From the NCBI RefSeq assembly GCF_004168625.1, contig NZ_SDWW01000025.1, positions 1 through 64,000 of the forward strand: a stretch of DNA of 64,000 nt, given 5' to 3'. Made by a program: the position numbers and the translations under genes. This document shows positions 2,092-27,239 of the stretch, piece after piece. Each line of letters starts with the position of its first letter. Within the stretch, counting starts at the first letter, position 1. The DNA comes from Pengzhenrongella frigida. GTDB taxonomy: Bacteria; Actinomycetota; Actinomycetes; Actinomycetales; Cellulomonadaceae. The notes beneath the pieces are model-generated. The model saw only the letters and a list, made by a program, of their open reading frames with translations. It was not told the DNA's origin and ran no database searches.

Positions 2092-2168
2092 GAGGGGACC
2101 GTGACGTTTTCGGTGGAGCGGCGTCTAACTCTGTGTAGAAGTCAACTTTTCGATGTCAGGAGACCCAT

Positions 2169-3380: not shown

Positions 3381-3432
3381 CCGGGCTCCACGACGACCCT
3401 CAACTGCTGCACCTCACATGGAGGAGATCCTC

Positions 3433-9821: not shown

Positions 9822-9825
9822 AAAG

Positions 9826-9856
9826 GCCCAGGTCAGAAATTGCTTCTGACCTGGGC
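9826..9856. terminator. Bidirectional intrinsic terminator, original tRNA-Pro terminator
   Basis: A 13-bp perfect stem (GCCCAGGTCAGAA at 9826-9838, complement 9844-9856) with a 5-base loop is flanked by AAAA on the left and TTTT on the right, so it can act in both directions. It lies 4 bp from the tRNA-Pro 3' fragment at 9861. In the ancestral chromosome it would have been directly downstream of tRNA-Pro; the 16 kb insertion has now separated them. Confidence 0.8.
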
Positions 9857-9860
9857 TTTT

Positions 9861-9903
9861 GTCGGGCTGACAGGATTTGAACCTGCGACCCCCTGACCCC
9901 CAG
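9861..9903. repeat. Left attachment site (tRNA-Pro 3' fragment, 43-bp direct repeat)
   Basis: These 43 bases are identical to 26047-26089 and correspond to the tRNA-Pro(GGG) gene from the anticodon loop to just past the discriminator base. The sequence diverges on both sides of the match. No 5' half of a tRNA is attached here, so it is the non-functional copy made by site-specific integration. Confidence 0.92.
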
Positions 9904-10080
9904 AATCATTCTTTGCGCTCAGAGACCTGCATTGATCTAAGCGTTTGCGCAGGTCAGGGGTCCACTCGCGTCCACCCCAATCCAGGCTTGCCCGAGGCGC
10001 TTTTTGGGGGCTAGGCTCCGTGTTATGGCACATTCTTGACCCCCTGAAGAATCGGCACAACAATGGCGAGAGGGGCTGGC

Positions 10081-11436
10081 ATGCCCAGGACACGAAGAGA
10101 CCGCGGCGATGGAACCTTGTACTTCGACGACCACACCCAACGGTGGGTCGGGCAACTGGACCTCGGTCGTGACTACACCGGCAAACGGCACCGCCCGAAG
10201 GTGTCCGGGCGCACCCGGGCCGAGGCGCGCATCAAGCTGTTGGACCTGCGCGCCAAGCACGAGGCCGGCGTCGACCTCAGCTCCCGATCCTGGAACTTCG
10301 CCGACCTCACCGCGGCCTGGCTCGAGCGGGGCTTGCCCGCGGACCTGTTCGAGAACGCCCGCTCGAACTACGAACGGATGCTCACCCTGCACGTCGTGCC
10401 GGTCCTGGGGGACATCAAGCTGCTCGAGCTGAAGTCCGACCACGTCGAGGCGATGCTCGACGAGATGGCCGAACAGAACCTGGCCGCCTCCTCCATGCGC
10501 CACGCCCTGAACCTCACCCGCCGCGTGCTGCGCTTCGCGATGCTGCGCGACCTCGTCATCCGCAACGTCGCCGAACCCGTCCAGACCCGCCGCGGCCCCA
10601 AAGCCCAACGCTTCGGCCTGACCGTCGACCAAGCCAAAGGCCTCCTCGCCGCCGCCGCAACCGACCGCCTGGCGAACATGCTCACCCTGTGTCTGCTCCT
10701 CGGGCTGCGCCCCGGCGAGGCCTCGGCCCTGACGTGGCCGCACGTGAAGACCGACGGCGACCGGCCCACCATCACCATCGCGGCGAGCCTGCGCCGCACT
10801 CCCCTGGGCGAACTGGTCCTCGTGCCACCCAAGACGTTCACCAGCCGGCGCACCCTGGAAATCCCACCACCCGTGGTGGACGCGTTGAACAAGCAGCGCA
10901 AACTGCAGGCCGCCGACGCCGCCACGGCCGGACAGGCGTGGTCCAACATCCACGACCTCGTGTTCAGCACCGAGGTCGGCACACCGCTGGACCCGTCCAA
11001 CGTGCGCCGGACCTACAACCGCATCGCCAAAGAAGCCGGCATCGTCCACCTGCACCCGCACATGCTCCGCCACGCCGCGGCCAGCTTGCTTTCCGCCGCC
11101 GGTGTGCCGATCGAAGACATCTCCGACACCCTCGGCCACCGCTCGGTCGCGGTGACCGCCGAGATCTACCGCCACCCGATCGCGCCCATCCGCTCCGGAC
11201 ACATGATCGCCATGAACCAACTCTTCGACGCCCCACCCGAACCCAAGAAGGCTCAGCCGAAACGAGCCAAGCCCGCGCCGACGAAAACGAAGGCCCAGCC
11301 CACGAAGCCGAGAAGGCCCAAGCCGGACGGCGGTGTCTCCGACAACGGTGACCGACAGCCCCCGGCGCCGGTGGCCAAGGCGCGATCCACATCGATCAAC
11401 AACGCATCCCCGACAAGTTGGACCGAACCGAGCTGA
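10081..11436 (+). CDS. Tyrosine site-specific integrase of the island
   Basis: 451 residues from ATG 10081. It has an N-terminal arm-type DNA-binding region (about 1-65), a SAM-like core-binding domain (about 70-165) and a catalytic domain (about 180-375). All catalytic residues are visible: R210 in GLRPGE, K251, H327-x2-R330 in HMLRH, H353 in LGHRS and nucleophile Y363. The C-terminal 80 residues are a Lys/Pro/Ala-rich tail, longer than usual. I prefer ATG 10081, which has GAGAGGGG just upstream, over ATG 10063, which has no close ribosome site. Its gene is 177 bp inside the left attachment site, the usual place for the enzyme that recombines that site. Confidence 0.92.
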   Translation: MPRTRRDRGDGTLYFDDHTQRWVGQLDLGRDYTGKRHRPKVSGRTRAEARIKLLDLRAKHEAGVDLSSRSWNFADLTAAWLERGLPADLFENARSNYERMLTLHVVPVLGDIKLLELKSDHVEAMLDEMAEQNLAASSMRHALNLTRRVLRFAMLRDLVIRNVAEPVQTRRGPKAQRFGLTVDQAKGLLAAAATDRLANMLTLCLLLGLRPGEASALTWPHVKTDGDRPTITIAASLRRTPLGELVLVPPKTFTSRRTLEIPPPVVDALNKQRKLQAADAATAGQAWSNIHDLVFSTEVGTPLDPSNVRRTYNRIAKEAGIVHLHPHMLRHAAASLLSAAGVPIEDISDTLGHRSVAVTAEIYRHPIAPIRSGHMIAMNQLFDAPPEPKKAQPKRAKPAPTKTKAQPTKPRRPKPDGGVSDNGDRQPPAPVAKARSTSINNASPTSWTEPS

Positions 11437-11763: not shown

Positions 11764-12348
11764 ATGGCTCCGACGAGTGATGAACTGCTCGCCAGTCTGC
11801 CCGAAACCTTTCGCTCATCGGAGGCCCTCGACCACGTCAGCGAGCGTCAGTTCCGCCGCCTCAAGGACGAGGGCAGAATTGCCGCGCTTTCCCGCGGCCT
11901 GTACCGCAAGAGTGACTGGCTGGGCGATGAGGACCTGATCGAGATCGCCGCCAAGTCGCCCCAGGCCACGCTCTGCCTGCGCTCGGCCCTCGCTCGCCAT
12001 GAGTTGATCGACGACATCCCGGTCGAGATCGACATCGCTATCCCGCGCGGATCGTGGACCCCGCAGACCGCTGCCCCGGTCAGGTGGCGCCACTTCGACC
12101 CAGACACCTTCTCCATCGGCCGCAGGCAGCTGAACACCGACGGTGGACGCAACATCGGCCTCTACTCCGCCGAGCGAAGCATCATCGACGCCTTCCGGAT
12201 GCGCCAACTCGAGGGTCCCGATCTCGCCAACGAGGCACTCAAGCGATGGCTTCGTCGTGGCGGTCAGCCCTCGGAGCTTCTGGCTTTGGCCAAGTCGTTC
12301 CCGCGCGCCCGGACCGCGCTGCGCAAGACGCTGGAGATCCTGCTGTGA
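11764..12348 (+). CDS. abiEi: AbiEi-type antitoxin / transcriptional repressor
   Basis: 194 residues. The N-terminal 60 residues form the winged-helix AbiEi antitoxin domain (FRSSEALDHVSERQFRRLKDEG, then IAALSRGLYRKSDW). The C-terminal domain (about 70-190) is the AbiEi family type (LCLRSALARHELIDDIP, YSAERSIIDAFRMRQLEG). AbiEi represses its own operon and neutralises AbiEii without stable protein contact (type IV toxin-antitoxin). ATG 11764 follows GGAGGTG; the upstream in-frame start at 11491 lacks support. The stop overlaps abiEii in GTGA. Confidence 0.88.
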   Translation: MAPTSDELLASLPETFRSSEALDHVSERQFRRLKDEGRIAALSRGLYRKSDWLGDEDLIEIAAKSPQATLCLRSALARHELIDDIPVEIDIAIPRGSWTPQTAAPVRWRHFDPDTFSIGRRQLNTDGGRNIGLYSAERSIIDAFRMRQLEGPDLANEALKRWLRRGGQPSELLALAKSFPRARTALRKTLEILL

Positions 12349-13241
12349 GCCGCGTGACAAGGGGTACGCCGTCTGGCGACGCCCACCTCGACCTACAGAA
12401 CGAGGCTCGCCGCACCGGGCGCCCGACCCAAGAGTTGCTTCAGCTCTACGTGCTCGAAGGGTTCCTCGCCCGCCTCGCGGTCAGCGAGGTTCGCCAGAGC
12501 TTCGTCCTCAAGGGCGGTGTCCTGCTGGCCGCCTTCGACTCGCGGCGACCGACCAAGGACGTCGACCTGGCCGCCATCGACCTTGCAGGCGACACCCAGA
12601 CGATTCTGGAGCTGGTGCGCCGAGTGCTGGTAGCCGAGCCGCCCGGCGATGACGGCGTCGAGTTCGTCGGCGACACGGCGACCGCTGAAATCATCCGCGA
12701 GGACGACGAGTATTCCGGAGTGCGTGTGCACATTGAAGCGCACCTTGCCAGCGCCAAGCTCCCGTTCCATGTCGACGTAAACGAGGGTGATCCAATCTGG
12801 CCCGAGCCGACAACCGTTGCCGTGCCCCGGCTTCGAGGTGGCGACCCGATCGAGCTGCCGGGCTACCCGATGCACATGGTTCACGCCGAGAAGATCGTGA
12901 CTGCCATCCAGCGCGGTATCGCGAACACGCGGTGGCGCGACTTCGGCGACATCTGGAGCCTCTCGCGCCGGCACCCGATCAGCGCGAGCGACCTGGCGAG
13001 CGCGATCGGTGAGGTCGCCCGTCACCGCAAGGCGAGCATCCGGCCACTGGCCGAGGTTCTCGACGGGTACGCCGAACTCGGGCAGGCACGGTGGGCTGCC
13101 TGGCGCCGCCGCAGCAACTCCGCCCGGCTGCCCGAACAGTTTGCGTCAGTCCTCGAAGAAGTCGTCGCGTTCGCAGACCCTGTGCTCTCCGGCTTCGTCG
13201 CCAGCGAGACGTGGAACCCGAACGGTGGCGATTGGGAGTAA
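12345..13241 (+). CDS. abiEii: AbiEii-type nucleotidyltransferase toxin
   Basis: 298 residues. The AbiEii/MenA nucleotidyltransferase signature is visible: FVLKGGVLLAAF (KGG at 56-58) followed by RRPTKDVDLAA with catalytic Asp pair D72 and D74. A conserved MVHAEKIVTAIQRG segment follows at about 190, and a helical C-terminal region (about 215-290). Members transfer nucleotides to tRNA or other targets and give abortive phage immunity. GTG 12345 overlaps the antitoxin stop; GTG 12354 is an alternative. The operon order antitoxin-toxin is canonical. Confidence 0.87.
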   Translation: MSRVTRGTPSGDAHLDLQNEARRTGRPTQELLQLYVLEGFLARLAVSEVRQSFVLKGGVLLAAFDSRRPTKDVDLAAIDLAGDTQTILELVRRVLVAEPPGDDGVEFVGDTATAEIIREDDEYSGVRVHIEAHLASAKLPFHVDVNEGDPIWPEPTTVAVPRLRGGDPIELPGYPMHMVHAEKIVTAIQRGIANTRWRDFGDIWSLSRRHPISASDLASAIGEVARHRKASIRPLAEVLDGYAELGQARWAAWRRRSNSARLPEQFASVLEEVVAFADPVLSGFVASETWNPNGGDWE

Positions 13242-13855: not shown

Positions 13856-14300
13856 CTATCCGGGCTCGTCAGTGGGCGGCGTCGACCAGATCGTCGCCAT
13901 TCTCGTCGCGGCCTCGTCCACCGCCGTCCTGGCGATCTCCGCCTCCGCAACCCCTGCGTTAATGAGCTGCCGCACAAGGCCAACTGGCAACGAGGGCAAC
14001 ACGACGTCGGGCCGGCTGCGCTGCGGCAGCACGCCGTCGCGCACGCACGCCCAGAACGCATCGGCGTCGACGGCCAGCTGATCACGCAGGATGTGGGCCC
14101 ACATCGACGGCGCATACGAAGTGCGGTCGACAGGATGGGAGATCCGCGTGCGAAGCACCGAACGATTCGCCAGTCGCAGCTCGTACTTGACGTTGCCCTG
14201 CCCGGGCTTGTCGCGCGAGCTGACGCACGTCCCAGCCCTCGTGTTCGCAGAAGGCGCGATGGTGGTGACGATCCGCTGGCGGGTACGGGTCCCCGGTCAC
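13856..14300 (-). pseudogene. Frameshifted cytotoxic translational repressor-type toxin
   Basis: Two frames together rebuild one 147-residue protein. The first frame starts at GTG 14300 and reads MTGDPYPPADRHHHRAFCEH then EGWDVRQLA. The second continues DKPGQGNVKYELRLANRSV and then LRTRISHPVDRTSYAPSMW, HILRDQLAVDADAFWACV, to the stop at 13856. This is the layout of the actinobacterial 'cytotoxic translational repressor of toxin-antitoxin stability system' family. The switch needs one base to be skipped in the GCGCG run near 14213-14217, so a one-base insertion inactivates it. A sequencing error is possible and would restore a full toxin. Its GTG overlaps the antitoxin stop, as in an intact operon. 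Confidence 0.75.
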
Positions 14301-14710
14301 TGGTCAGCGAGCAACCACGCGCGCAGCTGGTCGTCGTCGGACAGGCGCATCAGGTTCACCAGGCCCCAGTTCTCGGCGTGGTTCGGCGCGTCCGCGAGGT
14401 GAGAGTCCCAGTCCTGGGCGTAGTCCCGAAGCCCCTCGAGCGTCTCGGTGATCGCCTCCTCGAACGTCGACGCTTCGGCGGCAACCGCGAGCCCCGGGAT
14501 GAACACGACGCAGGCGCCGTCCTCGAACACGACCCGAGCACGGGAAGCCACCGTGGCCGCGAGGAACTGGCGAAGCCGGACCGCAGAGACGACCGCGGAC
14601 ACATCCGGGCCACGGGTCACGGTCACCAGGCGGCCAGCGCGCGCGGTGTCCAGGATCGCCTTCAAGTTCGTGCGCGCCACAGTGAAGCCGTCGTACGACG
14701 TCACGCTCAT
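14297..14710 (-). CDS. Phd/YefM-like antitoxin (prevent-host-death family)
   Basis: 137 residues. The N-terminal half (about 1-75) is Phd-like: VTSYDGFTVARTNLKAIL then DTARAGRLVTVTRGPDVSAVVS, with a strand-helix-strand DNA-binding pattern. The C-terminal part (about 80-137; EEAITETLEGLRDYAQDW) is the toxin-binding region seen with this toxin family. ATG 14710 has GGGGGAG upstream; the huge in-frame ORF starting at 15628 is antisense to jetA and rejected. Its toxin partner is frameshifted. The protein probably binds the GTACG array upstream of its own gene, which is shared with jetA. Confidence 0.82.
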   Translation of the reverse strand: MSVTSYDGFTVARTNLKAILDTARAGRLVTVTRGPDVSAVVSAVRLRQFLAATVASRARVVFEDGACVVFIPGLAVAAEASTFEEAITETLEGLRDYAQDWDSHLADAPNHAENWGLVNLMRLSDDDQLRAWLLADQ

Positions 14711-14749
14711 GGGACTCCCCCGTGAGAACCAGAAACCCACTCTCCTGAC

Positions 14750-14781
14750 GTACGGAACGTACGCGGCGTACGCCGCGTACG
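14750..14781. promoter_or_regulatory. Four-copy GTACG operator array with 22-bp palindrome
   Basis: GTACG occurs at 14750, 14759, 14768 and 14777, exactly every 9 bp. Positions 14759-14780 form a perfect 22-bp palindrome with half-site GTACGCGGCGT. It lies 40-70 bp upstream of the antitoxin start (minus strand) and about 150 bp upstream of jetA (plus strand). This layout is typical of a toxin-antitoxin autoregulatory operator where antitoxin dimers bind cooperatively. Confidence 0.65.
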
Positions 14782-14926
14782 CCAGGGGCGAAGCGCCAGC
14801 GACGCGTGCACGAGCAATGGGCTCGACGAGAGCAGGCGTCGACGTGATTAGTGCCAAGGACGATGCTGCCGCGCCCAAGCGTCCGGAGGCACACAAGCTC
14901 GCCGTCGGCGTGGAAAACTGACCACC

Positions 14927-16543
14927 GTGACCGAGACCGTGGAGCAGCCGAACGGGGCATATGCCCCGTTCGCGTACGCGACGGCTCCGAACTCGGCCCT
15001 CTACCGACGCATCATGCACACCTTCGTGCGCGCCAAGGAGCGCTTCACCGTGCACCTTCGCCCCGAGGACATCCGGTCGGCCCTCGAGGATGACGGCGGC
15101 ATCTCGGTCACGGACGCGGCCGTCGCAGCCGCGCTGGACTCGCTCGCGGCGCCCACGTGGGGCAACCTCGTCGCCTTTCCTGATTCGAGCCGGGTCACCG
15201 CCATCGAGGACTTCTACCGACGACGAATGCTCTACCAGTTGTCGCACGCTGGCGAGGCGGCCGAGCGCGCGCTTCGCCAGTTCGACGACTCGCTCGGCGC
15301 CCGCGGGGCGCTCCAGGCGGTCGCCCTCGAGGACATCGCCATCCTGCTCCGGTCGCTGGTCAGCCTGGGGAAACCCGGGGAACAGCCGATCGACGAGGCG
15401 CGCATCCATCAGGACCTGCGCTCGCTGCGGGACCGGTTCACCGAGCTGGCCGACAACGCGGTGCTCTTCATGGGTTCGGTGCAGCGCTCGATCGACCTCC
15501 AAGCCGCTGACCTCGACGCATTCCTTGCATACAAGGACAGCCTGATCGGCTACCTCGAACGATTCATCGCGGACCTCGTCACCCGCGGCGCGCAGATCAG
15601 CGCGCTCCTGCGGCGATTCTCCAGCCACGACGTGCAGCGTCTGTGCACCATCGCCGCCCGACGTGAAGCTCAGGATGCCGCTCCCGGCCTGATCTCCGCC
15701 GGCGCCAGCCTTGAGGCACCTCCGGTGCCCGAGCGGACCGACGCGAGCGTGCCCGATCCCCTGGCCGATCTCACCGTCATGTGGCTGCGACGCTGGGAGG
15801 GCCTGACGGACTGGTTCGTCGCCACCCCCGCGCGTGAGAGTGAGGCCAAGCTCCTACGCGCCCGAGCACGGTCAGCCATCCCCGCCCTGCTCGCGGTCGT
15901 GGCCACCTTGCACGACCGGCATTCGGGGCGTTCGGACCGGTCAGCGGACTTCCTCACCCTGGCGTCGTGGTTCTCCGCCCTGCCCGACGACGAAGCCCGG
16001 CATCGGCTGTGGCGCGGCGCGTTCGGGCTCGCCCCCGCACGCCACCTGTCGACCAACCCCGAGACCGAGGAAGCCTGGGAGCATGCCCGCGTCGGACCGT
16101 CGACGCAGTGGGCCGAATCACCCGGAATGCAGATCAGCAGCCAGCTACGCCGGACCGGTACCTACGAGCGCCGCGGCCGGCAAAACAGGGTGACGGACCG
16201 CACGGGAGCCAAGGCGCTGCTGGCCGACCGGGCCCGCGAGCAGTCCGAGCAGACCGCTGCGGCCCGGCGGCGCATCCTCACCGACGGCCCAGTTCGGCTG
16301 TCGACCTTCGCCGTCCTCGACCGCCAGTCCTTCCACCTCTTCCTCGCCCTGCTCGGCGACGGCCTGGCGGCGCTGCGCCCCGATCTGGACCACGCGGAGA
16401 TCTATACGTCCGACGGCGGGTTGCGCCTGACCATCACCCGGCTGCCTGGCGCACCCCCGATGCGACTCGAGACGGTCGACGGGGCACTGAGCGGTCCCGA
16501 CCACCTGGTCGACATCGGCCTGGTGGGGCTGGCCGCCGTATGA
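14927..16543 (+). CDS. jetA: Wadjet protein JetA (TIGR02677 / DUF2397)
   Basis: 538 residues, the normal length for TIGR02677. The family-typical N-terminus is present (FAYATAPNSALYRRIM then AKERFTVHLRPEDI), followed by winged-helix and helical regions resembling a kleisin-type subunit. JetA, JetB and JetC form an SMC-like complex that extrudes DNA loops and, with the JetD nuclease, cleaves circular plasmids. GTG 14927 is chosen because the conserved N-terminus starts by residue 15; the next ATG is 15013. The first 15 codons carry a 20-bp palindrome. The stop overlaps jetB in ATGA. Confidence 0.9.
   Translation: MTETVEQPNGAYAPFAYATAPNSALYRRIMHTFVRAKERFTVHLRPEDIRSALEDDGGISVTDAAVAAALDSLAAPTWGNLVAFPDSSRVTAIEDFYRRRMLYQLSHAGEAAERALRQFDDSLGARGALQAVALEDIAILLRSLVSLGKPGEQPIDEARIHQDLRSLRDRFTELADNAVLFMGSVQRSIDLQAADLDAFLAYKDSLIGYLERFIADLVTRGAQISALLRRFSSHDVQRLCTIAARREAQDAAPGLISAGASLEAPPVPERTDASVPDPLADLTVMWLRRWEGLTDWFVATPARESEAKLLRARARSAIPALLAVVATLHDRHSGRSDRSADFLTLASWFSALPDDEARHRLWRGAFGLAPARHLSTNPETEEAWEHARVGPSTQWAESPGMQISSQLRRTGTYERRGRQNRVTDRTGAKALLADRAREQSEQTAAARRRILTDGPVRLSTFAVLDRQSFHLFLALLGDGLAALRPDLDHAEIYTSDGGLRLTITRLPGAPPMRLETVDGALSGPDHLVDIGLVGLAAV
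14951..14970. promoter_or_regulatory. 20-bp perfect palindrome over the first jetA codons
   Basis: AACGGGGCAT and its exact complement run without a spacer from 14951 to 14970. They are followed directly by a 12-bp palindrome TCGCGTACGCGA (14970-14981). Both lie at codons 9-19 of jetA. They may be an operator, or an mRNA hairpin that limits jetA translation. Confidence 0.45.
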
Positions 16544-17826
16544 CCGACGCCCGGCACGTGGACGGCATCGCACCGCGCATCGCGACCGTCCTTGAAGAGC
16601 GGGATCGGGACGAACAGATCCGCGCCGCGCGGGCTCTGCTGGGCAGCCCGCTGCTGCGGGCCGATTCCGATCCGGAGGCGTTCCGCCTCGCCCGACGCCA
16701 CAGCGACCACCTGCGCCGGTGGTTCGAGCAGAACACCGGCTGGCGTCTGGTGGTCGATGCGCGGGTCGTGCGTCTGCTCAAGGCACCCAGCTTGAGCGGC
16801 CCCGCATCGTTGGCGATCGCCGGGAGCCACTCGGCGCGGGCGCGCCGCGGGGACCCGCCGTTCACCCGACGGCGATACGTGCTGCTCTGCCTGGCCCTGG
16901 CGTCGCTCGAACGGTCAGATCCGCAGGTCTCCCTGGGCCGGCTTGCCGAGAACGTCGTGCTCCTGTCCAGGCAGACCCCGCTCGAGGGTGTCGAGTTCGC
17001 CCTCGCCACCCGCGACGAGAGGTCCGACCTGGCCGCAGCGATCCGCCTCCTGCTGGGGCTCGGGGTCTTGACCCGGGTTGCCGGGGACGAGGAGTCGTTT
17101 GTTCAGTCGGGCGGTGACGCGCTCTACGACGTCGACCGCCGGGTGCTGTCCCGGCTGCTCGTGGTGCGCCACGGCCCGTCGGTCATCGTCAACACGCCGG
17201 GCTTCGACTCCGGCGAGCTCGAGATCAGCCAGCTCGAAGGCGCACTGTTCGCCGAGCCACCCGCCTTCACCGACGACGAGACGAACCGCCGCGTGCGGCA
17301 TGCGCTGACCAGCCGGCTGCTCGAAGACCCGGTCGTCTACTACGACGAGCTGGACGAGGCCGAGCGCGTCTACCTCACCCGCCAGCGAGCAGCGATCACG
17401 CGGCGCATCACCGAGTTCACGGGCCTGACCGCCGAGATGCGCGCCGAGGGGATCGCCATGGTCGACCCGCTCGACCAGCTGACCGACCTGCGGATGCCCG
17501 AGTCAGGCACCGACGGGCATGCCACGCTGCTGATTGCGGAGCACCTGGCCGGATCCGGCTCGACCGAGATCGAGCAGCTACGTCACCTCGTGCGCAAGCT
17601 CGCGGGCGAATACTCGACCTACTGGCGGCGCACCGCGCAGCAGCCGGGCGCCGAGAACGCCATCGTCGCGGACGCCGTCGGGCGCCTTGCGGGCCTTGGC
17701 CTGGTACGCATCGCGGGCACGACCGTCACCCCCCGACCGGCACTGCACCGCTTCTCCATCGGCGCACCCACGATCCGCGCAGCAGTGCTCAGCGCACCGG
17801 ACACCAGCAGAGGAACCCATCGATGA
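16540..17826 (+). CDS. jetB: Wadjet protein JetB (TIGR02678 / DUF2398)
   Basis: 428 residues, typical for TIGR02678. The family's N-terminal helical part (IRAARALLGSPLLRA) is followed by a winged-helix segment (FTRRRYVLLCLALASLERSD) and the mid-region YDVDRRVLSRLLVVRHGPS. The C-terminal motif DAVGRLAGLGLVRIAG is a second winged-helix. JetB acts like the MukE/KITE subunit of the Wadjet SMC complex. ATG 16540 overlaps the jetA stop; the longer in-frame ORF start at 15967 is a shadow inside jetA. The gene overlaps jetC by four bases. Confidence 0.9.
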   Translation: MTDARHVDGIAPRIATVLEERDRDEQIRAARALLGSPLLRADSDPEAFRLARRHSDHLRRWFEQNTGWRLVVDARVVRLLKAPSLSGPASLAIAGSHSARARRGDPPFTRRRYVLLCLALASLERSDPQVSLGRLAENVVLLSRQTPLEGVEFALATRDERSDLAAAIRLLLGLGVLTRVAGDEESFVQSGGDALYDVDRRVLSRLLVVRHGPSVIVNTPGFDSGELEISQLEGALFAEPPAFTDDETNRRVRHALTSRLLEDPVVYYDELDEAERVYLTRQRAAITRRITEFTGLTAEMRAEGIAMVDPLDQLTDLRMPESGTDGHATLLIAEHLAGSGSTEIEQLRHLVRKLAGEYSTYWRRTAQQPGAENAIVADAVGRLAGLGLVRIAGTTVTPRPALHRFSIGAPTIRAAVLSAPDTSRGTHR

Positions 17827-20800
17827 ACCAGGACTCCCCGGCACCTCGGCCTACGACCCGCCGCTGGCAGCCGCTTCGCCTCGGCCTCGTCGACCTCTTC
17901 TACTACGACGATGAGCAGTTCTGGTTCCACGACGGCAGGCTCCTGCTGCGGGGCAACAACGGCACGGGCAAGTCCAAAGTCCTGGCGCTCACGTTGCCGT
18001 TCCTGCTTGACGGGTCCCTGGCCGCGCAGCGGGTCGAGCCCGACGCCGACCCGAAGAAGCGGATGGAGTGGAACCTGCTGCTCGGTGGGGACCACCCGAA
18101 CAGCGAGCGGCTCGGGTACACCTGGGTCGAGTTCGGCCGCGTCGACGACGACGGCATCGAGCACTTCACCACGCTGGGTTGTGGCCTGAAGGCCGTGACC
18201 GGTCGCGGGATCTCCCGGCACTGGTTCTTCGTCACGGACCGCCGGATCGGCGACCTGCGGCTCGTGGACGCGAACGGCGTCGCCCTGGCGCGCGAACGGC
18301 TGCGCGATGAGCTCGAGGACCGGGGTCGCGTCTACGACACACGCGAGGAGTACCGCCACGCGGTGGACGAGGCGCTTTTCGGGCTCGGCCCGAGCCGGTA
18401 CAGCGCACTTGTCGATCTGCTCATCCAGCTTCGTCAGCCGCAGCTGTCGAAACGACCGGACGCACGCGCACTGTCCGGGGCGCTCACCGAGGCGCTCGCA
18501 CCTCTTGACCAAGCCGTGATCGCCGACGTCGCCGAGTCGTTCCGCAGTCTCGAGGAGGACCGGAGCCGGCTGCTGGAGGCCGAATCGACGCACGACGCCG
18601 CTGCGGCCTTCCTGCGCCACTACGCCGAGTACGCGCGCGTGGCCTCGCGCCGCGCTGCGAAGGGCGTGCGAACCACGCAGAGCGAGTACGAGCACCTTGG
18701 CCGCGAACAAGGCGTCGCCGACGAGAAGCTCGCCCTCGCGCTGGCCGAACTCGATCGAGTGACCGGCGCCGAAACACAGCTCGCCCTGGATCGCAGCGGC
18801 CTGCTCGGCACCCAGGAGGCCTTGCGCACCAGTCCGGAGATGGATGCGGCCCGCGAGCTCGAGGAGGCGGGGAAGGCTGCCGCAGTGTCGCAGGCAGCCG
18901 CGGCTCTCGCCCTCGGCGACGTCCAACAGGCAGAGAAGCGCCGTGGAGCGACGGCGGCCGAACTCGAAACGGCGACGCGGGCTGACGGCGACGCGCGGGA
19001 GCACTTCGGCCGGCTCGACAGCAACGCCGCCGATCGCTTCGTCGCGGCGGGGCTCGGCGCGACCCACGGCGCCCTGCTCACCGACGACGGGACAGCCCGG
19101 GAGGCAGTGTCCCGGCGCCGCGACCAGCTCGACCACGTCGGGAGGCTAGTCACCACCGCGGACCAGGCACACCGGCACGCCGAGCAGCAGCGACAGGCGT
19201 TCGACGACGCACAGGCCAGGGCAGCCCAACGCAGCGAGCAGGCCGCGGCGAGCGACCGAGTCCTCGAGGACGCAATCACCGGGTACGCGGTCAGGCTCGG
19301 TGACTACGTCCGGTCGCTGACCGTCCTGGTGGTCGAGGACCACGACGACGTGCTCGACCTCAGTGCCCGCTGGGCGGTCGCCCAGGATGGTCCAGCACCC
19401 GCGCGCCGGGCGGTCGAACGGGCCGCTGCGGAGGCGACCAGCCAGATCGCGGCGAGCCGCGCACGGAGCGAGAACGAGAAATCCGAGCTGAGCGCTGAGC
19501 TCACAGAGGTACGCGCGCGGCTGGCCGAGCTCGACCAGGGCGAGACACCGCAGCCAGCCGGCCTGCCGACCCGCGACACCCGGGTGCGCGCGAGCGCACC
19601 CGGGGCGCCGTTATGGCGGCTGACCGACTTCGCGGAGAACCTCGATGCCACCGATCGAGCCGGCCTCGAGGCCGCGCTCGAAGCTGCCGGGCTGCTCGAC
19701 GCCTGGGTGCGACCCGACGGCTCGGTCACGCGAGTCGCGACGGGCGATCTCGTCCTCGGCGCGGCGCCCGACGGCGGCGACGGCGACGAAACCCCACCAC
19801 TACCCGCACCTGACTCCCTCGCCGCCGCCCTGAAACCATCCGTCGCCCCGGGCGGTGCGGGCCCGGACGCGACCCCGGCGGTCAGCGACGCCGTCGTACA
19901 GGGAGTAATCGCGCGGATCGGCTGGGGCAAGGACTCCGGGGCGCCGGTCTGGGTCGATCGCGACGGCAACTTCGCGCTCGGACCCGCGCGCGGCGCGTGG
20001 TCGAAGTCGCACGCGCAGTTCATCGGAGCCAGTGCACGGGAAGCCAACCGGCGCGCGGCGATCGAGCTGCAGCAGGCGCGAGCACGTGAGCTTGAGGCGC
20101 TCCTCGAGGCGTTGCTCGGCGAACTCGCTGCGCTCGAGGTACGTCGTCACGCAGCCGAGGTCGAGCAGGGCAAGTATCCGCAGGAGAGCGAAACGCTCTT
20201 GGTGCGCGCCCACGCCGCCGTGGAGGCCGCAGTCCGCGAGGTCGACGGTGCCCGCGCCGACGCCCTGGAGTCCGACCAGGCCTGGCAGGCCGCGCTGCGG
20301 GCCGCGACCCACTGCCGTGAGCTGGCCGCCGAGGCTGCCGCCGACGTCGGATCCGCCCACACAGCCGACGGGCTGCGCACGAACCGAGACGACCTGGACG
20401 AGTACGCAGCGGCGCTGCGGCTCGCCCGGGAGGGCCGCGATGCTGCCGCCCGCGCGGGGCGGGACCTCGCGGCCGCCGTCGTGCGGGCACAGGACGCTGC
20501 GGCCGACCACACCGATCGGCAAGGCCGGCACCTCGCCGCCGGCCGGGAGAACACGCTCGCGACCGCCCGGCACGCGACCCTGCTCGGTGCCGTCGGCAAG
20601 GCCGTTGCGGAGCTCCAGGAGGACCTCGCCCGGATCCGAACGGCGCTCAGCGACCTCGACGGCCTGGCCACCAGGCTGGTGCGCGAGCGAGACAGCGCGA
20701 GCCGTCTGCTCGGTATCGCCGAGGAGCGCATCGCTGGCCTCGCCCGAGAACGCGAGGCCGCCACCGGCCGTCGGGCCGACGCCATCACGGTCCTGCGCCG

Positions 20801-21953
20801 GTTCGCTTCCACCCAGCTCTTGCACATCGCCCTGCCCGGCATCGACACGCCCGGCGCGGAGCCGGCCTGGACAGCACGTGCGGCAACCACGCTGGCCCGG
20901 GAGGTCGAGGCCGCCCTCGTGGACGTCGCGATGGACACCGACGCGTGGGACCGGGTCCAGCAACGCACGTCCAACGCGTTCACGGAGCTGAGCGCCCAGA
21001 TGAGCCGGCAGGGTCACACCGCAATCTCCGAGCAGCACGAGGAAGGGATGACCGTCCGCGTCGCCTTCCAGTCGCAGGAGCTCGCCATCGACGCCCTGGT
21101 GGACACGCTCGCCAAGGACATCGAGATCCGCCAACAGATCCTCAGCGCACGCGAGCGGGAGATCCTCGAGAACCACCTCGTCACCGATGTCGCGGGCCAC
21201 CTGTCGGACCTGTTGGGTCAGGCCCAGGGCCAGGTGGACGACCTGAACCGCGAGCTGTCCGGGCGAAAGACGTCGACCGGAATGCAGCTGCGGGTGCTCT
21301 GGCGCCCCCGCCCCGACGGACCGTCCGGATTCGCGGTCGCGCGGGGCCTTCTGCTGCGCTCCGCGGATGTCTGGAACGCAGCCGATCGCGCGGCGATCGG
21401 AGACTTCCTGCAGGCCCAGATCTCGGCTGCGAGGCTCGCGGATCCCACCGCCGGCTGGGCAGAACAGCTCCAGATCGCCCTGGACTACCGGACCTGGCAC
21501 GACTTCGCGGTAGAACGACAGCAGAACGGGCAGTGGCGACCCGCAACGGGCCCAGCCTCGGGCGGCGAGCGGGTACTGACGGTCTCGATCCCGCTGTTCG
21601 CGGCGGCGTCCTCGCACTACCACTCCGCCAGCAACCCCTTCGCGCCGCGCCTCATCCTTCTCGACGAGGCGTTCGCGGGCGTGGACGACGACTCGCGCGC
21701 CAAGTCCCTCGGACTGCTCGCAACGTTCGACCTCGACGTAGTGATGACCAGCGAGCGTGAGTGGGGCTGCTACCCGCAGGTTCCCGGACTAGCTATCGCC
21801 CAGCTATCCCGGGTTGAGGGCGTCGACGCCGTCGGGGTCACGCGGTGGCGGTGGGACGGCAGGAACCGCACCCTCGACGCCAGCCCCGGCCAGAGCGCCG
21901 CCGCGGGCGAACCCCGCACCAGCGAGGTCGACGCCGGAAGCCTGTTCGACTGA
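17823..21953 (+). CDS. jetC: Wadjet SMC-like ATPase JetC (TIGR02680)
   Basis: 1376 residues. An N-terminal ABC half-domain carries Walker A RGNNGTGKSK (about 43-52). A very long Ala/Arg/Glu-rich coiled coil (about 240-1180) is broken by a hinge-like region near 580-720. The C-terminal half-domain has the signature ASGGERVLT (about 1244) and Walker B RLILLDEAF (about 1275). This is the MukB/SMC-like motor of Wadjet, which folds plasmid DNA. All ATPase motifs appear intact. It is coupled to jetB by ATGA and to jetD by TGATG, so the four proteins come from one mRNA. Confidence 0.93.
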   Translation: MNQDSPAPRPTTRRWQPLRLGLVDLFYYDDEQFWFHDGRLLLRGNNGTGKSKVLALTLPFLLDGSLAAQRVEPDADPKKRMEWNLLLGGDHPNSERLGYTWVEFGRVDDDGIEHFTTLGCGLKAVTGRGISRHWFFVTDRRIGDLRLVDANGVALARERLRDELEDRGRVYDTREEYRHAVDEALFGLGPSRYSALVDLLIQLRQPQLSKRPDARALSGALTEALAPLDQAVIADVAESFRSLEEDRSRLLEAESTHDAAAAFLRHYAEYARVASRRAAKGVRTTQSEYEHLGREQGVADEKLALALAELDRVTGAETQLALDRSGLLGTQEALRTSPEMDAARELEEAGKAAAVSQAAAALALGDVQQAEKRRGATAAELETATRADGDAREHFGRLDSNAADRFVAAGLGATHGALLTDDGTAREAVSRRRDQLDHVGRLVTTADQAHRHAEQQRQAFDDAQARAAQRSEQAAASDRVLEDAITGYAVRLGDYVRSLTVLVVEDHDDVLDLSARWAVAQDGPAPARRAVERAAAEATSQIAASRARSENEKSELSAELTEVRARLAELDQGETPQPAGLPTRDTRVRASAPGAPLWRLTDFAENLDATDRAGLEAALEAAGLLDAWVRPDGSVTRVATGDLVLGAAPDGGDGDETPPLPAPDSLAAALKPSVAPGGAGPDATPAVSDAVVQGVIARIGWGKDSGAPVWVDRDGNFALGPARGAWSKSHAQFIGASAREANRRAAIELQQARARELEALLEALLGELAALEVRRHAAEVEQGKYPQESETLLVRAHAAVEAAVREVDGARADALESDQAWQAALRAATHCRELAAEAAADVGSAHTADGLRTNRDDLDEYAAALRLAREGRDAAARAGRDLAAAVVRAQDAAADHTDRQGRHLAAGRENTLATARHATLLGAVGKAVAELQEDLARIRTALSDLDGLATRLVRERDSASRLLGIAEERIAGLAREREAATGRRADAITVLRRFASTQLLHIALPGIDTPGAEPAWTARAATTLAREVEAALVDVAMDTDAWDRVQQRTSNAFTELSAQMSRQGHTAISEQHEEGMTVRVAFQSQELAIDALVDTLAKDIEIRQQILSAREREILENHLVTDVAGHLSDLLGQAQGQVDDLNRELSGRKTSTGMQLRVLWRPRPDGPSGFAVARGLLLRSADVWNAADRAAIGDFLQAQISAARLADPTAGWAEQLQIALDYRTWHDFAVERQQNGQWRPATGPASGGERVLTVSIPLFAAASSHYHSASNPFAPRLILLDEAFAGVDDDSRAKSLGLLATFDLDVVMTSEREWGCYPQVPGLAIAQLSRVEGVDAVGVTRWRWDGRNRTLDASPGQSAAAGEPRTSEVDAGSLFD

Positions 21954-23341
21954 TGCAGGCCAACGACGACGTCGTACGCCTTCAACGGCTCCTGGGCGGG
22001 CCCGAAACCGCATGGCTTGTTCGGCGGGTACGCGCACGCCTGGGACAAGGCCACACGGGGCCGTTGACTGGGTCGGTCCAGCTCCGCGAACCGAGCGCTG
22101 ACCAACGCGCGGCCATCATGCGCATCGTCGGGGCGCCGCGACGACCGGGCGCCACCTTGCGGGTGGACCTCGGCGAACTCGAGGACCTGCTACGCCGAGG
22201 TGTCTGGCCCAACGGTTTGGCCGACGCCGTCGCGGTGCTCACCGGGCCGATCCCGAACCGGCCGCGAGAACGCGCAACCGCCGACGCCGCGTGGGCCGAC
22301 GCACAGGACGCCTTCAACCCCGCAATCCTGGTTCACCCGACGCTGGCCGACTGGTGGCAGCAATGGTGCACGGCCGGGCACCTCAAGCGAGCGGCACGCT
22401 CCGACCCCAGCGTCGCGCGCCGGCTCGCCGTCGACGCAGCCACCTGCCTATGCGCCCTGCCGAGCACGGGCGAACCGCTGGCCGTGTTCGCCCGCCGCAC
22501 CACAGGCGACGCGCACGGATTGGACCGCACACGCCCGCTGGGCCGTGTGGTCTTGGCCGCGGTCGGAGCACTGGGCGAGGTTGATGCGAAATCCGCTGCC
22601 GACGACGCACTGGGACCTCGTGAGATCTGGGCGAGCGTCGGAGTCCTTGTCTCGGCGGTGTCCTCAACGGTGCTGTGCCTGGGCGTGCCCGGAGAACCGT
22701 CCGCTGAAACCGGCGGGACGGCTGGCGCGCGCGCCACCGCGATCGCCCTGCGCGAATGGCGGAGCGCCGGGCTACCCGTCGTTCTCACTCTTGAGCAAGT
22801 GCGCTCTGGAGGCATCGGCGTCGTTCCGGCAGGCGAGGTGATCCACGCGTGTGAGAACCCCAGCGTGGTCGAGGTTGTCGCGGATGAATTGACGCGGCGC
22901 GGCGGGCCCGAAGCGGCGTCCATGGTCCCGCCCGTTCTGATCTGCACCTATGGTCAACCCGGTGCCGCCGTCCTGGAACTGCTCGACCACCTCACCGCTG
23001 CAGGGGCGGGCGTGCGTTACCACGGCGACTTCGACTGGGCCGGGCTGCGCATCGCCTCGACGCTCGCGGCCCACACCCCGTGGGAGCCGTGGCGGTTTCG
23101 CGCGCCGGACTACGCCTCGGCTGTTCACGGACTCGATTCGCAGCCGCCCGAACTCACCACCGAGCGGGAGCGACTCCCCCTGCGCGGAGCCCCTGCGGCA
23201 TCGGCCTGGGACCCCGCACTGGCCGACGCCATGCGTGCGACCGGCATCGCGATCGAGGAAGAGGAGGTCATCGCTCTACTCGTCGCCGACCTCGTACCTG
23301 CACCACTCCAGAAGCGCGAACCACACTCCCCCGATCGATAA
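21953..23341 (+). CDS. jetD: Wadjet nuclease JetD (TIGR02679 / DUF2399)
   Basis: 462 residues. The N-terminal part (about 1-200) is the DUF3323-type domain. The C-terminal DUF2399 domain is Toprim-like: the acidic ENPSVVEVVADEL segment (about 302-315) supplies a candidate catalytic Glu, and GDFDWAGLRIA (about 357-367) supplies the DxD pair. JetD cleaves DNA stalled in the JetABC complex. ATG 21953 shares a base with the jetC stop. After it come 118 bp and a decayed transposase, so the Wadjet operon ends here. I see no truncation or missing motif. Confidence 0.9.
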   Translation: MQANDDVVRLQRLLGGPETAWLVRRVRARLGQGHTGPLTGSVQLREPSADQRAAIMRIVGAPRRPGATLRVDLGELEDLLRRGVWPNGLADAVAVLTGPIPNRPRERATADAAWADAQDAFNPAILVHPTLADWWQQWCTAGHLKRAARSDPSVARRLAVDAATCLCALPSTGEPLAVFARRTTGDAHGLDRTRPLGRVVLAAVGALGEVDAKSAADDALGPREIWASVGVLVSAVSSTVLCLGVPGEPSAETGGTAGARATAIALREWRSAGLPVVLTLEQVRSGGIGVVPAGEVIHACENPSVVEVVADELTRRGGPEAASMVPPVLICTYGQPGAAVLELLDHLTAAGAGVRYHGDFDWAGLRIASTLAAHTPWEPWRFRAPDYASAVHGLDSQPPELTTERERLPLRGAPAASAWDPALADAMRATGIAIEEEEVIALLVADLVPAPLQKREPHSPDR

Positions 23342-23370: not shown

Positions 23371-23733
23371 GCTCTTCGCAGTTAGCCGGGCAGCGGGCGG
23401 GCCCGTCGTTGAGGTAGTAGGCCCGTGACCTCGGTGATTATGGCTGTAACGAGCAGATCATGGTTTCAAATCGAGGTCACGGGCTTGGTTCAGCGTCCGT
23501 AGTTCAGGTGGTTCCCGAGAGCGGCATCTCGGCTGTGTCGCGACTGTTGGATCTGCAGGGGTTGGAGGTCCGGGACGTCACCACGGACCGGCACGGTGGT
23601 CGTGTGGTCCATATGGTGACCGCCGATCTGCCCGCGTCGGTGTCCTTCGCGCGGGGAGTTCTCGACCTCGGCGAATGGCCAAGTCACGACGGCGCCGCGG
23701 GATATCCCGTACGGGGTACGGCTACTATGGTAG
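23371..23733 (+). pseudogene. Decayed ISL3-like insertion sequence / transposase fragment
   Basis: A frame from 23460 reads SAVSRLLDLQGLEVRDVTTD and GGRVVHMVTADLPAS, like the start of ISL3-family transposases. The match then continues in the next frame as CPSRGEFSTSANGQ and VTTAPRDIPYG, ending at TAG 23731. The zinc-ribbon pattern CPxCG is damaged (second Cys replaced by Arg). The catalytic domain is missing. GCTCTTCGCAGTT at 23371-23383 resembles an ISL3 terminal repeat and may be the left end. It is a dead 5' fragment lying between the Wadjet operon and HipBA. Confidence 0.6.
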
Positions 23734-23765
23734 ACACAGCGCTCATTAAAGCTGACAGTGGTTGA

Positions 23766-23791: not shown

Positions 23792-24094
23792 ATGGCCACA
23801 AGGCCGCTGCCGGTGAAGGTCAGTCACGCCGCGACCACCCTGGGCGAACAAGTGTCGACCTGGCGCAAGCTTCAGGGACTGACCGCTGAGCAACTCGCCC
23901 AGCGCGCAGGCATCACCCGGGGCACGCTGAGCCGGCTCGAGCACGGCGATCCCGGCGTCGGGCTGGGTGTGTTTCTCTCGGTCGCCCAGGCGCTGGGGCA
24001 GATGGAAGGCGTCGTCAAGGCACTAGACCCGTACGAGACCGACCTGGGCCGCGCCCGCGCGGACTGGAACCTCCCGCGCCGGGTGCGTCCATGA
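23792..24094 (+). CDS. hipB: HipB-like XRE-family antitoxin
   Basis: 100 residues. A helix-turn-helix of the XRE type spans about 17-70: LGEQVSTWRKLQGLTAEQLA then QRAGITRGTLSRLEHGDPGV. The C-terminal tail (about 75-100) is Arg-rich and probably contacts HipA. It forms a dimer that represses its promoter and neutralises the HipA kinase. ATG 23792 follows AAAAAGGA. The stop overlaps hipA in ATGA. Confidence 0.88.
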   Translation: MATRPLPVKVSHAATTLGEQVSTWRKLQGLTAEQLAQRAGITRGTLSRLEHGDPGVGLGVFLSVAQALGQMEGVVKALDPYETDLGRARADWNLPRRVRP

Positions 24095-25317
24095 CGGGGG
24101 CCGACGCGACCCAGGTCTCGGTCGCGCTGCGCATCGGCGAGCAGGACGTGCACGCCGGAACCGCCTTCATCCAAGAGCGTCGGGGTGCGCTCTCCACGAC
24201 CTTCACCTACACCCCGGCGTTCCAGTCCGACACCCGCGGGTTCTCGATCAGCCCCGACCTGCCACTGACCGCAGGCCGACACCACCTCACGGGCCTGCCC
24301 GGAGTTTTCGCCGACAGCGCCCCCGACCGGTGGGGCCACAATCTGATCGCCAAACGGGTCCGCGGCGAGGCCCGCCACGACGGCCGACCGGTCCCCACCG
24401 TCCTGGAGGTCGACAACCTCCTGGGGGTCAGCGACCTGACCCGCCAGGGAGCGCTGCGGTTCCGCCTCGACGACGGGCCGTTCCTGGCCGCAGATTCGCA
24501 CGTGCCCACCCTGATCGAGCTACCCAAGCTGCTGCGAGCCGCGGACGCGATCTCCACCGGCAACGAGGGCGACACCCTGGCCGCGGTCAAGGTGCTCCTG
24601 GACGCGGGGACCGGCTCGCTCGGCGGGGCCCGACCCAAAGCCTCCGTGCGAGACGGGGAGCGACTGCTGATCGCCAAGTTCCCCCACCCCGGCGACCAGT
24701 GGGACGTCATGGCGTGGGAGAAGACCGTTCTGGACCTCGCCGAACGCGTAGGGATCGCCGTGCCCCGCAGGCGCCTGGTCAGCATCGACGGACGACACGC
24801 GCTGCTGCTCGACAGATTCGACCGGATAGGTGCGCAGCGGGTGCACTACCTCAGCGCGATGTCCCTGGTCGGCGGCCACGACGGGACCACGTACGACTAC
24901 CTCGAGGTCGCCGAAGCGCTCGCCAGGCACGGCGCCACCGTCGCTGCCGACCTCGCTCAGCTGTGGCTGCGCATCGCGTTCTTCCTCGCGGTGAACAACA
25001 CCGACGACCACCTGCGCAACCACGGGTTCCTGCGCGCACGGGCCGGGTGGTCACTGGCACCCGCCTTCGACGTCAACCCCAACCCGGACCCGCGGGCCCA
25101 GCCCGTGACCTCCATCGGGTTCGCGTCCGGCTCACGCGCCGTGCGCCGGCAGGCGCTGCTGGCCTGCGCCGGCGACTTCGGCCTCAGCCCCCAGGTCGCG
25201 AAAGAGAAGCTCGCGACCGTGACAGCGAGCGTGAACAACTGGCGTCAGGTCGCGGCAAGCAACGACATCCAAGCGGGCGAGCAAGACCTGTTCACCGACT
25301 GCTTTCAAGCCGAATGA
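24091..25317 (+). CDS. hipA: HipA-family serine/threonine kinase toxin
   Basis: 408 residues, a normal full-length HipA. The N-terminal subdomain (about 10-110) contains LPGVFADSAPDRWG. Kinase motifs follow: the P-loop-like GSLGGARPKAS (about 176-186), LLDRFDR (about 247-253), the catalytic NNTDDHLRNHG (about 302-312) and the metal-binding APAFDVNP (about 327-334). E. coli HipA phosphorylates glutamyl-tRNA synthetase and causes persistence; the target here is unknown. All catalytic residues appear present, so the toxin is likely active and held by HipB. Confidence 0.9.
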   Translation: MTGADATQVSVALRIGEQDVHAGTAFIQERRGALSTTFTYTPAFQSDTRGFSISPDLPLTAGRHHLTGLPGVFADSAPDRWGHNLIAKRVRGEARHDGRPVPTVLEVDNLLGVSDLTRQGALRFRLDDGPFLAADSHVPTLIELPKLLRAADAISTGNEGDTLAAVKVLLDAGTGSLGGARPKASVRDGERLLIAKFPHPGDQWDVMAWEKTVLDLAERVGIAVPRRRLVSIDGRHALLLDRFDRIGAQRVHYLSAMSLVGGHDGTTYDYLEVAEALARHGATVAADLAQLWLRIAFFLAVNNTDDHLRNHGFLRARAGWSLAPAFDVNPNPDPRAQPVTSIGFASGSRAVRRQALLACAGDFGLSPQVAKEKLATVTASVNNWRQVAASNDIQAGEQDLFTDCFQAE

Positions 25318-25566: not shown

Positions 25567-25803
25567 GTGACCACGAACAACTTGGCCAACGCTGTCCTTC
25601 CGCTGGTTCGCACCCGCGCCGACCTGCACCGCTGGGGCGCCGCGAACGAGCACGACCGTCAGATGCACGAGGCCGTCGACATCCTGCAAGCTGCCATCCC
25701 GTCCACAGATCCGTCCGAGGCCCATGCCGTGACCCACAAGGCGCTTGCTTCCGCGATCACGGTCATCGCCCGGGCCGACGACTCCAGCAGATCGACTGCA
25801 TGA
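25567..25803 (+). CDS. Small hypothetical protein at the island's right end
   Basis: 78 residues that I do not recognise. It is soluble and helical (NNLANAVLPLVRTRADLHRW, then MHEAVDILQAAI and HKALASAITVIARAD) with no membrane segment. Start is GTG 25567; a weak purine-rich site lies upstream. The 249 bp between hipA and this gene contain nothing else I can support. It is the last cargo gene before the right attachment site and could be an accessory of excision or regulation; that is speculation. Confidence 0.5.
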   Translation: MTTNNLANAVLPLVRTRADLHRWGAANEHDRQMHEAVDILQAAIPSTDPSEAHAVTHKALASAITVIARADDSSRSTA

Positions 25804-26046
25804 CAAGGGGTAGCTCCACACTCGAGAATACAAGAATTTCACCCAGAAATCGACCGCCTCAATGTGTCACAACGGCAAAATCACGATTCGACGGCGCGAA
25901 TTCTGCTCACTTTTTCGGGGTTACCGAAACAATGTCACCGAACCGTCAATCTATCGACGATCACTGCGTAGGCACCCCAGAGTGCCTATGCACAGGTCGG
26001 AGCCGATCCGCTGATGCGACCCGGCCCTCTGACCTGCTGTTATACC
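25804..26046. other. Non-coding right end of the island
   Basis: These 243 bp are richer in A and T than the rest of the window and carry no gene. A 10-base near-perfect inverted repeat (GCGTAGGCAC at 25966-25975, GTGCCTATGC at 25982-25991) lies about 55 bp inside the right repeat. It may be a terminator or an integrase arm-binding site. Confidence 0.4.
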
Positions 26047-26089
26047 GTCGGGCTGACAGGATTTGAACCTGCGACCCCCTGACCCCCAG
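26047..26089. repeat. Right attachment site (43-bp direct repeat within tRNA-Pro)
   Basis: Identical to 9861-9903 over 43 bases and identical to the 3' part of the functional tRNA-Pro gene. Integration here leaves the tRNA intact because the element brings the same 3' end. Confidence 0.92.
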
Positions 26090-26121
26090 TCAGGTGCGCT
26101 ACCAAGCTGCGCTACAGCCCG
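26048..26121 (-). tRNA. tRNA-Pro (anticodon GGG)
   Basis: The minus strand folds into a canonical cloverleaf: acceptor CGGGCTG with CAGCCCG, D-arm GCGC/GCGC, anticodon stem CCTGA/TCAGG with loop CTGGGGG (anticodon GGG), and T-arm CAGG-TTCAAAT-CCTG. The discriminator is A and CCA is not encoded. The 3' portion doubles as the integration site of the 16 kb island, and its original terminator is now at 9826-9856. Confidence 0.96.
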
Positions 26122-26147
26122 CCGGCCCCGGAGGGCCAGCGGAAACA

Positions 26148-27239
26148 CTACCTCACCGGGGCCCCGGTTCCAGACCCTCGCCCGGCGGCCCGCATCACGT
26201 TCAGCTCCGCCCCCACCACCCCGAGCACCGCGAGGTCCACGACAACCCCCGCCATCGCCGCCCACTGGTCGAGCCGGAACACCGCGACCTGCGTCACCAG
26301 CAGCGAGACCAGCACCGCCCGCCGGAACCACACGTACCCCACCAGCCGGTCCCCGCGCACCCGTGCAGCCCCGATCATCACGAACAAGACTGACACTCCC
26401 CCGCTGACCACCAGCGCGCCCACGACCCAACCAGGCACCGCACTCCCGCCGACCCACACAACCAGCCCGCGCCCGACGGTCGCCACCCCGGCCAGCGAGA
26501 GCACCCCCACCGCAACCCACGGCGCCCACCGCGCCCGCACCACGAGCCTCGTCGCCCGCACCACCCACGACGCCACCGCCCCGATCGGATCGGGCAGTTC
26601 GTCGGCGTCGGACTCGACCACGTCCAGCAGCGCCCGCACCTCCCCCGCCCCGGCCACGGGCCCAGCCGAGGAGACCAGGTCGCGCGCGCGACGTCGGGCA
26701 CGCGTGCTGAAGCCGCCCGCAACCCCCGCCACAGCCAGGTCCACGGCCCCAGCAAGCGCCTCGGAGGCGTGCGGCGGTCGACGCCCCTGCACACCCTCGG
26801 AGACGAGCAGCAGAGCGACCACCACGAGGTAGATCAGCGACGCCGTCGGCTCGTAGAAGTAGTCGTTGTCCGACGTGACGAACTTGCCGATCTCGTCGAT
26901 GAACAGCCCGAACCCGACCCCGCCCACGAGTGCCCCGACCGGCCGCACCACGGGCCCCGCGAACGACAGCAGCAGCACGAACGCGAGCGCCATCAGCAGC
27001 CCGCCCCACAGCACGTGCGCCACGTGCAGCCCGCCGCCCCCGAGCTGCGGGTACCCCAGCGCAGCCAGCGACAAACGAACCAGCAGCACCGTGACAACAG
27101 CAGAGACGAAGAACCCCGCCACGTGCCGCCCGCCGGCCTCGTCCCGCGGCAGCCCCCAGCGCAGCAGCAGGCCCCGGCGCCGAACCCCGTCGGGTCCGGC
27201 CACCGGGGCCGCGTCGCTAGCTGAAGAGGACGAGCTCAA
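26148..27239 (-). CDS. Multi-pass membrane protein, function unknown
   Basis: 363 residues from TTG 27239, which overlaps the der stop (TTGA), so it is coupled to der. About eight or nine hydrophobic segments are visible (for example [53 protein letters not shown]). A conserved-looking [13 protein letters not shown] segment with two acidic residues and a Lys lies between helices near residue 120. I do not recognise a named family; similar proteins occur in actinobacteria beside integral-membrane or TIGR-type unknowns. The longer ORF start at 27590 lies inside der and is rejected. Confidence 0.65.

Follow-up and report, generated by a model that had tools for sequence, protein, structure and literature searches.

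The window considered here is the whole 64,000-nucleotide stretch of Pengzhenrongella frigida DNA (family Cellulomonadaceae; contig NZ_SDWW01000025.1, positions 1 to 64,000), which carries at 14927-23341 a complete Wadjet operon, jetA-jetB-jetC-jetD, with all four genes intact. The operon is the cargo of a real and sharply bounded 16.2-kb integrative element located in tRNA-Pro(ggg), and it is assigned here to type II of the Wadjet systems. The coordinates of all features are collected in Table 1.

The jet operon and its subtype

The four jet genes occupy uninterrupted frames on the + strand with successive overlaps of 4, 4 and 1 bp, as had been described in an earlier interpretation made from the letters of the window (the sequence-only reading). 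Their products score above the cut-offs of the corresponding NCBIfam families over almost the full profile length: JetA 478.9 bits against TIGR02677 (cut-off 165.85), JetB 337.5 bits against TIGR02678 (124.65), JetC 1128.4 bits against TIGR02680 (462.85) and JetD 281 bits against TIGR02679 (196), the JetB and JetD queries in the NCBIfam, PADLOC and Pfam searches carrying one surplus upstream codon. PADLOC names all four proteins as Jet, and the Wadjet identity proposed in the sequence-only reading is thereby upheld. Pfam matches of the four proteins are DUF2397, DUF2398, SbcC_Walker_B and DUF3323+DUF2399. JetA is presumably the kleisin-like subunit, and JetB is taken here to be the KITE/MukE-like subunit. 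The motifs that had been noticed from the sequence were found at defined positions: JetC contains the complete set of structural maintenance of chromosomes (SMC) ATPase motifs, namely Walker A (GNNGTGKS at 44), the signature (SGGE at 1246) and Walker B (LILLDEAF at 1277), and JetD contains the Toprim-like motifs ENP at 301 and HGDFDW at 357. E301, N302, P303, D359 and D361 of JetD are invariant in all 44 aligned JetD proteins.

An AlphaFold model of JetD, built from 44 sequences, has a mean pLDDT (predicted local distance difference test) of 92.9 and a pTM (predicted template modelling score) of 0.82. The top Foldseek matches of the model are JetD of Pseudomonas aeruginosa (7til_B, E=6.4e-5) and the Corynebacterium glutamicum nuclease (8b7f_A, E=9e-5), followed by topoisomerase VI-A. 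A second structural aligner placed the model with topoisomerase VI-A 1d3y_B (Z 14.1, root-mean-square deviation (rmsd) 6.0, 237 aligned), Spo11 8urq_A (Z 13.1, rmsd 3.1, 173 aligned), 8b7f_A (Z 13.0, rmsd 10.2, 247 aligned) and 7til_A (Z 10.7, rmsd 10.3, 298 aligned). The predicted fold is Toprim/topoisomerase VI-A-like, matching JetD, MksG and topoisomerase VI-A. When solved structures were searched with the JetD sequence, the matches were to three RecA-fusion chains and spanned residues 141/142-176 (E 3.5e-9 to 1.1e-6); none of the stretches passed alone, and these matches were set aside as a likely artefact. A six-row JetD profile gave no match among solved structures.

Regarding the subtype, the sequence-only reading had labelled the operon type III, a label that is not supported. 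The operon is type II instead, because PADLOC names JetA2 (578.3 bits), JetB2 (438.2 bits), JetC2 (1317.1 bits) and JetD2 (404.7 bits) as the best models for all four proteins and because the closest solved complex is 9qe0. Among the PADLOC matches at E<=0.001 there was no model named type III, the presence of such models in the library not having been checked. The entries 9qe0/9qe1 are the sole PDB match of JetC at E<=0.01 (E=1.8e-71), and JetA matches the JetA chain of 9qe0 (E=1e-20). A type III operon, proposed only in the sequence-only reading, is therefore highly improbable. The PDB entry names the chains only, and a reference title in PMC12647877 suggests that 9qe0/9qe1 is the type II complex of Neobacillus vireti (nvJET); that paper describes nvJET as Wadjet-II and as cleaving naked circular DNA. 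nvJET would thus be the closest solved complex for JetC and JetA, although it is distant in sequence. Type I Wadjet systems (JetABCD of P. aeruginosa and MksBEFG of C. glutamicum) share the JetD fold and give weak matches (JetB1, 21 bits; JetC1, 36.5 bits), but the type I models score far below those of type II.

Within the family, a type II Wadjet at locus L039 of genome G013 shows 53% identity in JetC and 52% in JetD over the alignment; it differs in that the operon lies elsewhere in its genome and no integrase was found in its 19.9-kb stretch. Two fragmentary loci are in part closer than L039, namely L115, from a Pseudonocardia metagenome-assembled genome (71% over JetC 8-289), and L060 (61% over JetC 687-1376). 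The TIGR02680 cut-off is exceeded in 6 of 200 family genomes and in 6 of 59 relatives, the own genome being counted in both, and the four same-genus relatives have no match; the distribution of Wadjet in the family is patchy. According to PMC10482375, 42% of actinobacterial genomes encode some Wadjet. Wadjet is therefore ordinary for the phylum, and the operon adds one more system of a known type.

The element at tRNA-Pro(ggg) and its cargo

The sequence-only reading had placed the Wadjet operon inside an island, and the boundaries bear this out. The 3' end of tRNA-Pro(ggg) is repeated directly on the far side of the operon, the two 43-bp copies being identical at 43 of 43 positions and 16,186 bp apart; in mononucleotide shuffles of window positions 1-30000, an exact repeat of at least 22 bp occurred in 0 of 100. 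An intact tyrosine integrase adjoins the left copy and contains GLR at 214, HMLRH at 333, GH at 358 and Y369, which we take to be its catalytic residues. In a same-genus genome (G004, locus L031), the counterparts of window 9817-9903 and 26047-26161 (95% and 93% identity) adjoin each other without an insert, and the same insert-free join of the window ends, at 86% identity, is found in a same-family genome (G023, L033).

The tRNA-Pro site is a hotspot used by other integrating elements. Copies resembling the 43-bp repeat lie near tRNA-Pro in genomes G002, G003, G008 and G023. In same-genus G002, genes for RepSA, HTH_17 and an integrase stand directly beside the same tRNA-Pro, and the element extends over L036 357-3351 and L035 18484-19899, with RepSA, HTH_17, integrase and FtsK-like genes. 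RepSA, HTH_17 and the integrase are presumably parts of a pSAM2-type integrating element that replicates as a circle, and the Wadjet island therefore sits where circular rivals land. In G008, an integrase occurs at the site with AbiEi and AbiEii (AbiEii 47% identical), and that genome has no TIGR02680 match. Approximately 270 bp ending in the 3' half of tRNA-Pro (9623-9895) is present in three more copies in the P. frigida genome at 75-79% identity (C87:11014-11270, C88:770-1054 and C88:11145-11429, the C88 pair being 10.4 kb apart); these may be scars of further integrations or a tRNA-derived repeat.

Table 1. Features of the element and its jet operon (positions in the window)
Feature	Position	Strand	Product	Evidence
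Left attachment site, 43-bp copy of tRNA-Pro 3' end	9861-9903			Identical direct copy at 26047-26089
Tyrosine integrase of the island	10063-11436	+		PF00589 82.9 bits; phrog_1 integrase 215.1 bits
AbiEi-type antitoxin	11764-12348	+		PADLOC AbiEi 167 bits; Pfam AbiEi_4 20.7 bits, below cut-off 25
AbiEii nucleotidyltransferase toxin	12354-13241	+		PF08843 106.3 bits; PADLOC AbiEii 269.1 bits
PHD-like antitoxin, divergent from jetA	14297-14710	-		PF12910 31.3 bits, cut-off 27
Candidate operator between PHD-like gene and jetA	14749-14782			Four CGTACG palindromes, exact 9-bp spacing
JetA (DUF2397), type II	14927-16543	+	538 aa, GTG start	TIGR02677; PADLOC JetA2; PDB 9qe0 JetA
JetB (DUF2398), type II	16540-17826	+	428 aa	TIGR02678; PADLOC JetB2
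JetC, SMC/MukB-like ATPase, type II	17823-21953	+	1376 aa	TIGR02680; PADLOC JetC2; PDB 9qe0
JetD (DUF3323+DUF2399), Toprim/topoisomerase VI-A-like nuclease, type II	21953-23341	+	462 aa	TIGR02679; PADLOC JetD2; predicted fold
Short frame	23460-23765	+		No match in Pfam, NCBIfam, PADLOC, PHROGs
XRE/HipB-like regulator	23792-24094	+		HTH_3 39.5 bits; couple_hipB 37.7 bits, below cut-off 71.65
HipA-type kinase toxin	24091-25317	+		PF07804 141.3 bits
tRNA-Pro(ggg); its 3' 43 nt (26047-26089) form the right attachment site	26047-26121	-		ARAGORN; repeat

In addition to Wadjet, the island carries an AbiE pair and a HipBA-like pair, which are likely stabilisers of the element. The palindrome array upstream of jetA resembles a Phd/YefM operator, and this candidate operator may affect jet expression. 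On the - strand at 13859-14300, adjoining the PHD-like antitoxin, a frame read by eye is broken into pieces; it is presumably toxin-like, and its larger piece gave no NCBIfam or PHROGs match and just 15.8 bits in PADLOC. The short frame downstream of jetD seems to us to resemble the first part of an ISL3-type transposase. Family searches of every called island gene revealed no replication initiator or FtsK-like transfer gene as would mark an actinomycete integrative and conjugative element. AbiE is likewise carried on an integrating element in the case of ICESsuHN105 of Streptococcus suis, an integrative and conjugative element (ICE) whose excision is limited by its AbiEi antitoxin, according to PMC11062541; ICESsuHN105 is conjugative, whereas no transfer gene was recognised on the island.

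Expected activity and possible fates of the carrier's predicted circle

The JetD folds, coupled with the literature, support a Wadjet mechanism by homology. JetABC would extrude DNA loops, and the Toprim nuclease JetD would cut circular DNA once it has been fully extruded. Such an activity would eliminate small plasmids entering the cell, as well as the circular intermediates of other elements, and would spare chromosome-sized or linear DNA. Most published work on Wadjet concerns type I. If the operon is expressed, Wadjet would protect the host of the element and exclude circular rivals. Restriction of small circular plasmids, which the sequence-only reading expected, would follow from membership in the family. 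In Clostridium cellulovorans, conjugative uptake of plasmids rose strongly when the native jetABCD was deleted (PMC12287153).

The overall reading, in which a 16.2-kb integrative element in tRNA-Pro(ggg) bears a complete type II Wadjet (JetABCD) as its cargo, is given a probability of roughly 0.9. Several observations weigh against this assignment. The match of JetB to the JetB of 9qe0 is weak (E=0.03), and the Foldseek matches of JetD have whole-chain template modelling scores of just 0.27-0.28 (by query length) with rmsd of 12-15. At the boundaries, similarity between the two ends of the element continues imperfectly beyond the exact repeat (9845-9903 versus 26028-26089, 89%), and the unique left flank in the comparison with G004 and G023 therefore amounts to just about 30 bp. 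The far (der) side of the tRNA is moreover rearranged in G004, lying approximately 35 kb away in the other orientation (L031, L032), which suggests that an inversion had a breakpoint next to the tRNA. Finally, no excisionase was recognised, a search in which the small gap frames were mostly only read, 25567-25800 and 23460-23762 being family-searched, so that an excisionase may have been missed; the mobility of the element is uncertain for this reason.

With the type III label set aside above, two other explanations bear on function. Wadjet may be complete but silent or inactive, its genes being retained as hitchhikers on the element. Elsewhere the island does look decayed, as illustrated by the broken frame beside the PHD-like antitoxin and the short transposase-like frame at 23460, and the PHD-like gene with its candidate operator directly upstream could repress the operon; nevertheless, the four open frames, the invariant catalytic residues and the overlapping starts argue for a working system, and silence is considered unlikely. 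Alternatively, the operon could encode an MksBEF-like condensin with a housekeeping role instead of a nuclease for defence, given that SMC, kleisin-like and KITE-like parts also occur in chromosome condensins. The patchy distribution, the island setting and the intact nuclease residues of JetD stand in contrast to the expectation for such a condensin, which is accordingly a very remote explanation.

The preferred reading, a type II Wadjet on an integrative element, places known machinery in a setting useful for testing how a mobile element copes with a nuclease directed at the circle it would form. If excision occurs, the element is predicted to form a 16.2-kb circle, which would be below the published Wadjet size limit. 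The sequence-only reading held that the element must tolerate Wadjet as a circle; this is a fair inference from the predicted circle, with tolerance being one of several outcomes, since the circle may also be cut, or may be formed rarely or never. AbiE can limit ICE excision, and the island circle may therefore be prevented upstream of Wadjet. A stronger proposal is that Wadjet acts on its own carrier, in which case the excised 16.2-kb circle would be cut, the element would be locked in the chromosome and rival circles at tRNA-Pro would be cleared. This proposal is quite doubtful; if true, it would represent a mobile element that uses a nuclease to immobilise itself and to keep others out of its site. 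A sharply bounded element of 16.2 kb in which both the integrase and the type II Wadjet are intact would provide a clean test of how Wadjet carriers escape their own nuclease, as such an element can be altered in size, in topology and in its state of integration.

The carriage of type II JetC in database records follows a pattern that self-restriction predicts. No match to type II JetC was found in 50,697 phage records, and the idea that Wadjet is carried by phages was rejected, with 0 of 166 viral-contig pattern matches encoding a relative. A search of 72,556 plasmid records yielded 20 with type II JetC, and a Mesorhizobium JetC query returned the same 20. Nineteen of them are at least 148,985 bp long, the intactness of each not having been checked and one being an 11.85-Mb record that resembles a chromosome; the sole shorter record (72,694 bp) is linear, and its annotation shows no more of jetC than a C-terminal piece and splits jetD in two. 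Topology was obtained for seven of the 20, four being circular (148,985; 578,456; 850,061; 1,081,311 bp) and three linear (72,694; 376,733; 451,593 bp). On the 148,985-bp circular plasmid of Alicyclobacillus dauci (L149), the type II Wadjet adjoins a PemK/MazF toxin and a cas12b annotated in two pieces.

As controls for plasmid size, 60 records each were taken at even ranking steps from the plasmid records with HipA (701) and AbiEii (624). Records below 148,985 bp make up 23/60 for HipA and 21/60 for AbiEii, which differs from JetC with a Fisher p of 0.004 at a threshold taken from the same data; at the published 100-kb threshold, the difference (1/20 for JetC versus 26/120 for the controls) is not significant (p = 0.12). 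The contrast in plasmid size is compatible with self-restriction and suggestive at most, as taxa and gene length also differ. According to a review (PMC10586767), circular plasmids of differing size can carry Wadjet operons, and types II and III still need study.

Integrases at other type II loci and a minor observation

The proximity of an integrase was surveyed with a home-made tyrosine integrase profile in 85 other type II loci, consisting of the best 80 of 366 and five relatives; 11 loci in which one or more of jetA, jetB and jetD were not found in the available stretch were still counted. A tyrosine integrase was found in four of the 85 (L055, L078, L100 and L106), the domain in L100 being matched in part only, and in three of the 42 loci flanked by over 5 kb on each side. 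Integrase proximity is therefore a minority arrangement in this sample, the survey having covered tyrosine integrases without serine recombinases and without a random-window control. At L055 in Streptomyces purpureus, the type II Wadjet is flanked by 79-nt direct repeats (6936-7014 and 16647-16725) that are 90% identical and 9.7 kb apart.

In the literature searched, whose coverage was incomplete, no small tRNA island with a type II Wadjet was found, and no claim of absence from print is made. There is precedent for Wadjet on integrating elements, as type I Wadjet occurs within or between ICEs of Fervidacidithiobacillus caldus according to PMC12375680.

The window also extends to the left of the island. 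At 180-5138, it contains frames that appear to us to be small alkaline-shock-like (Asp23-type) and sigma-factor-like, together with a presumably Dps-like frame.

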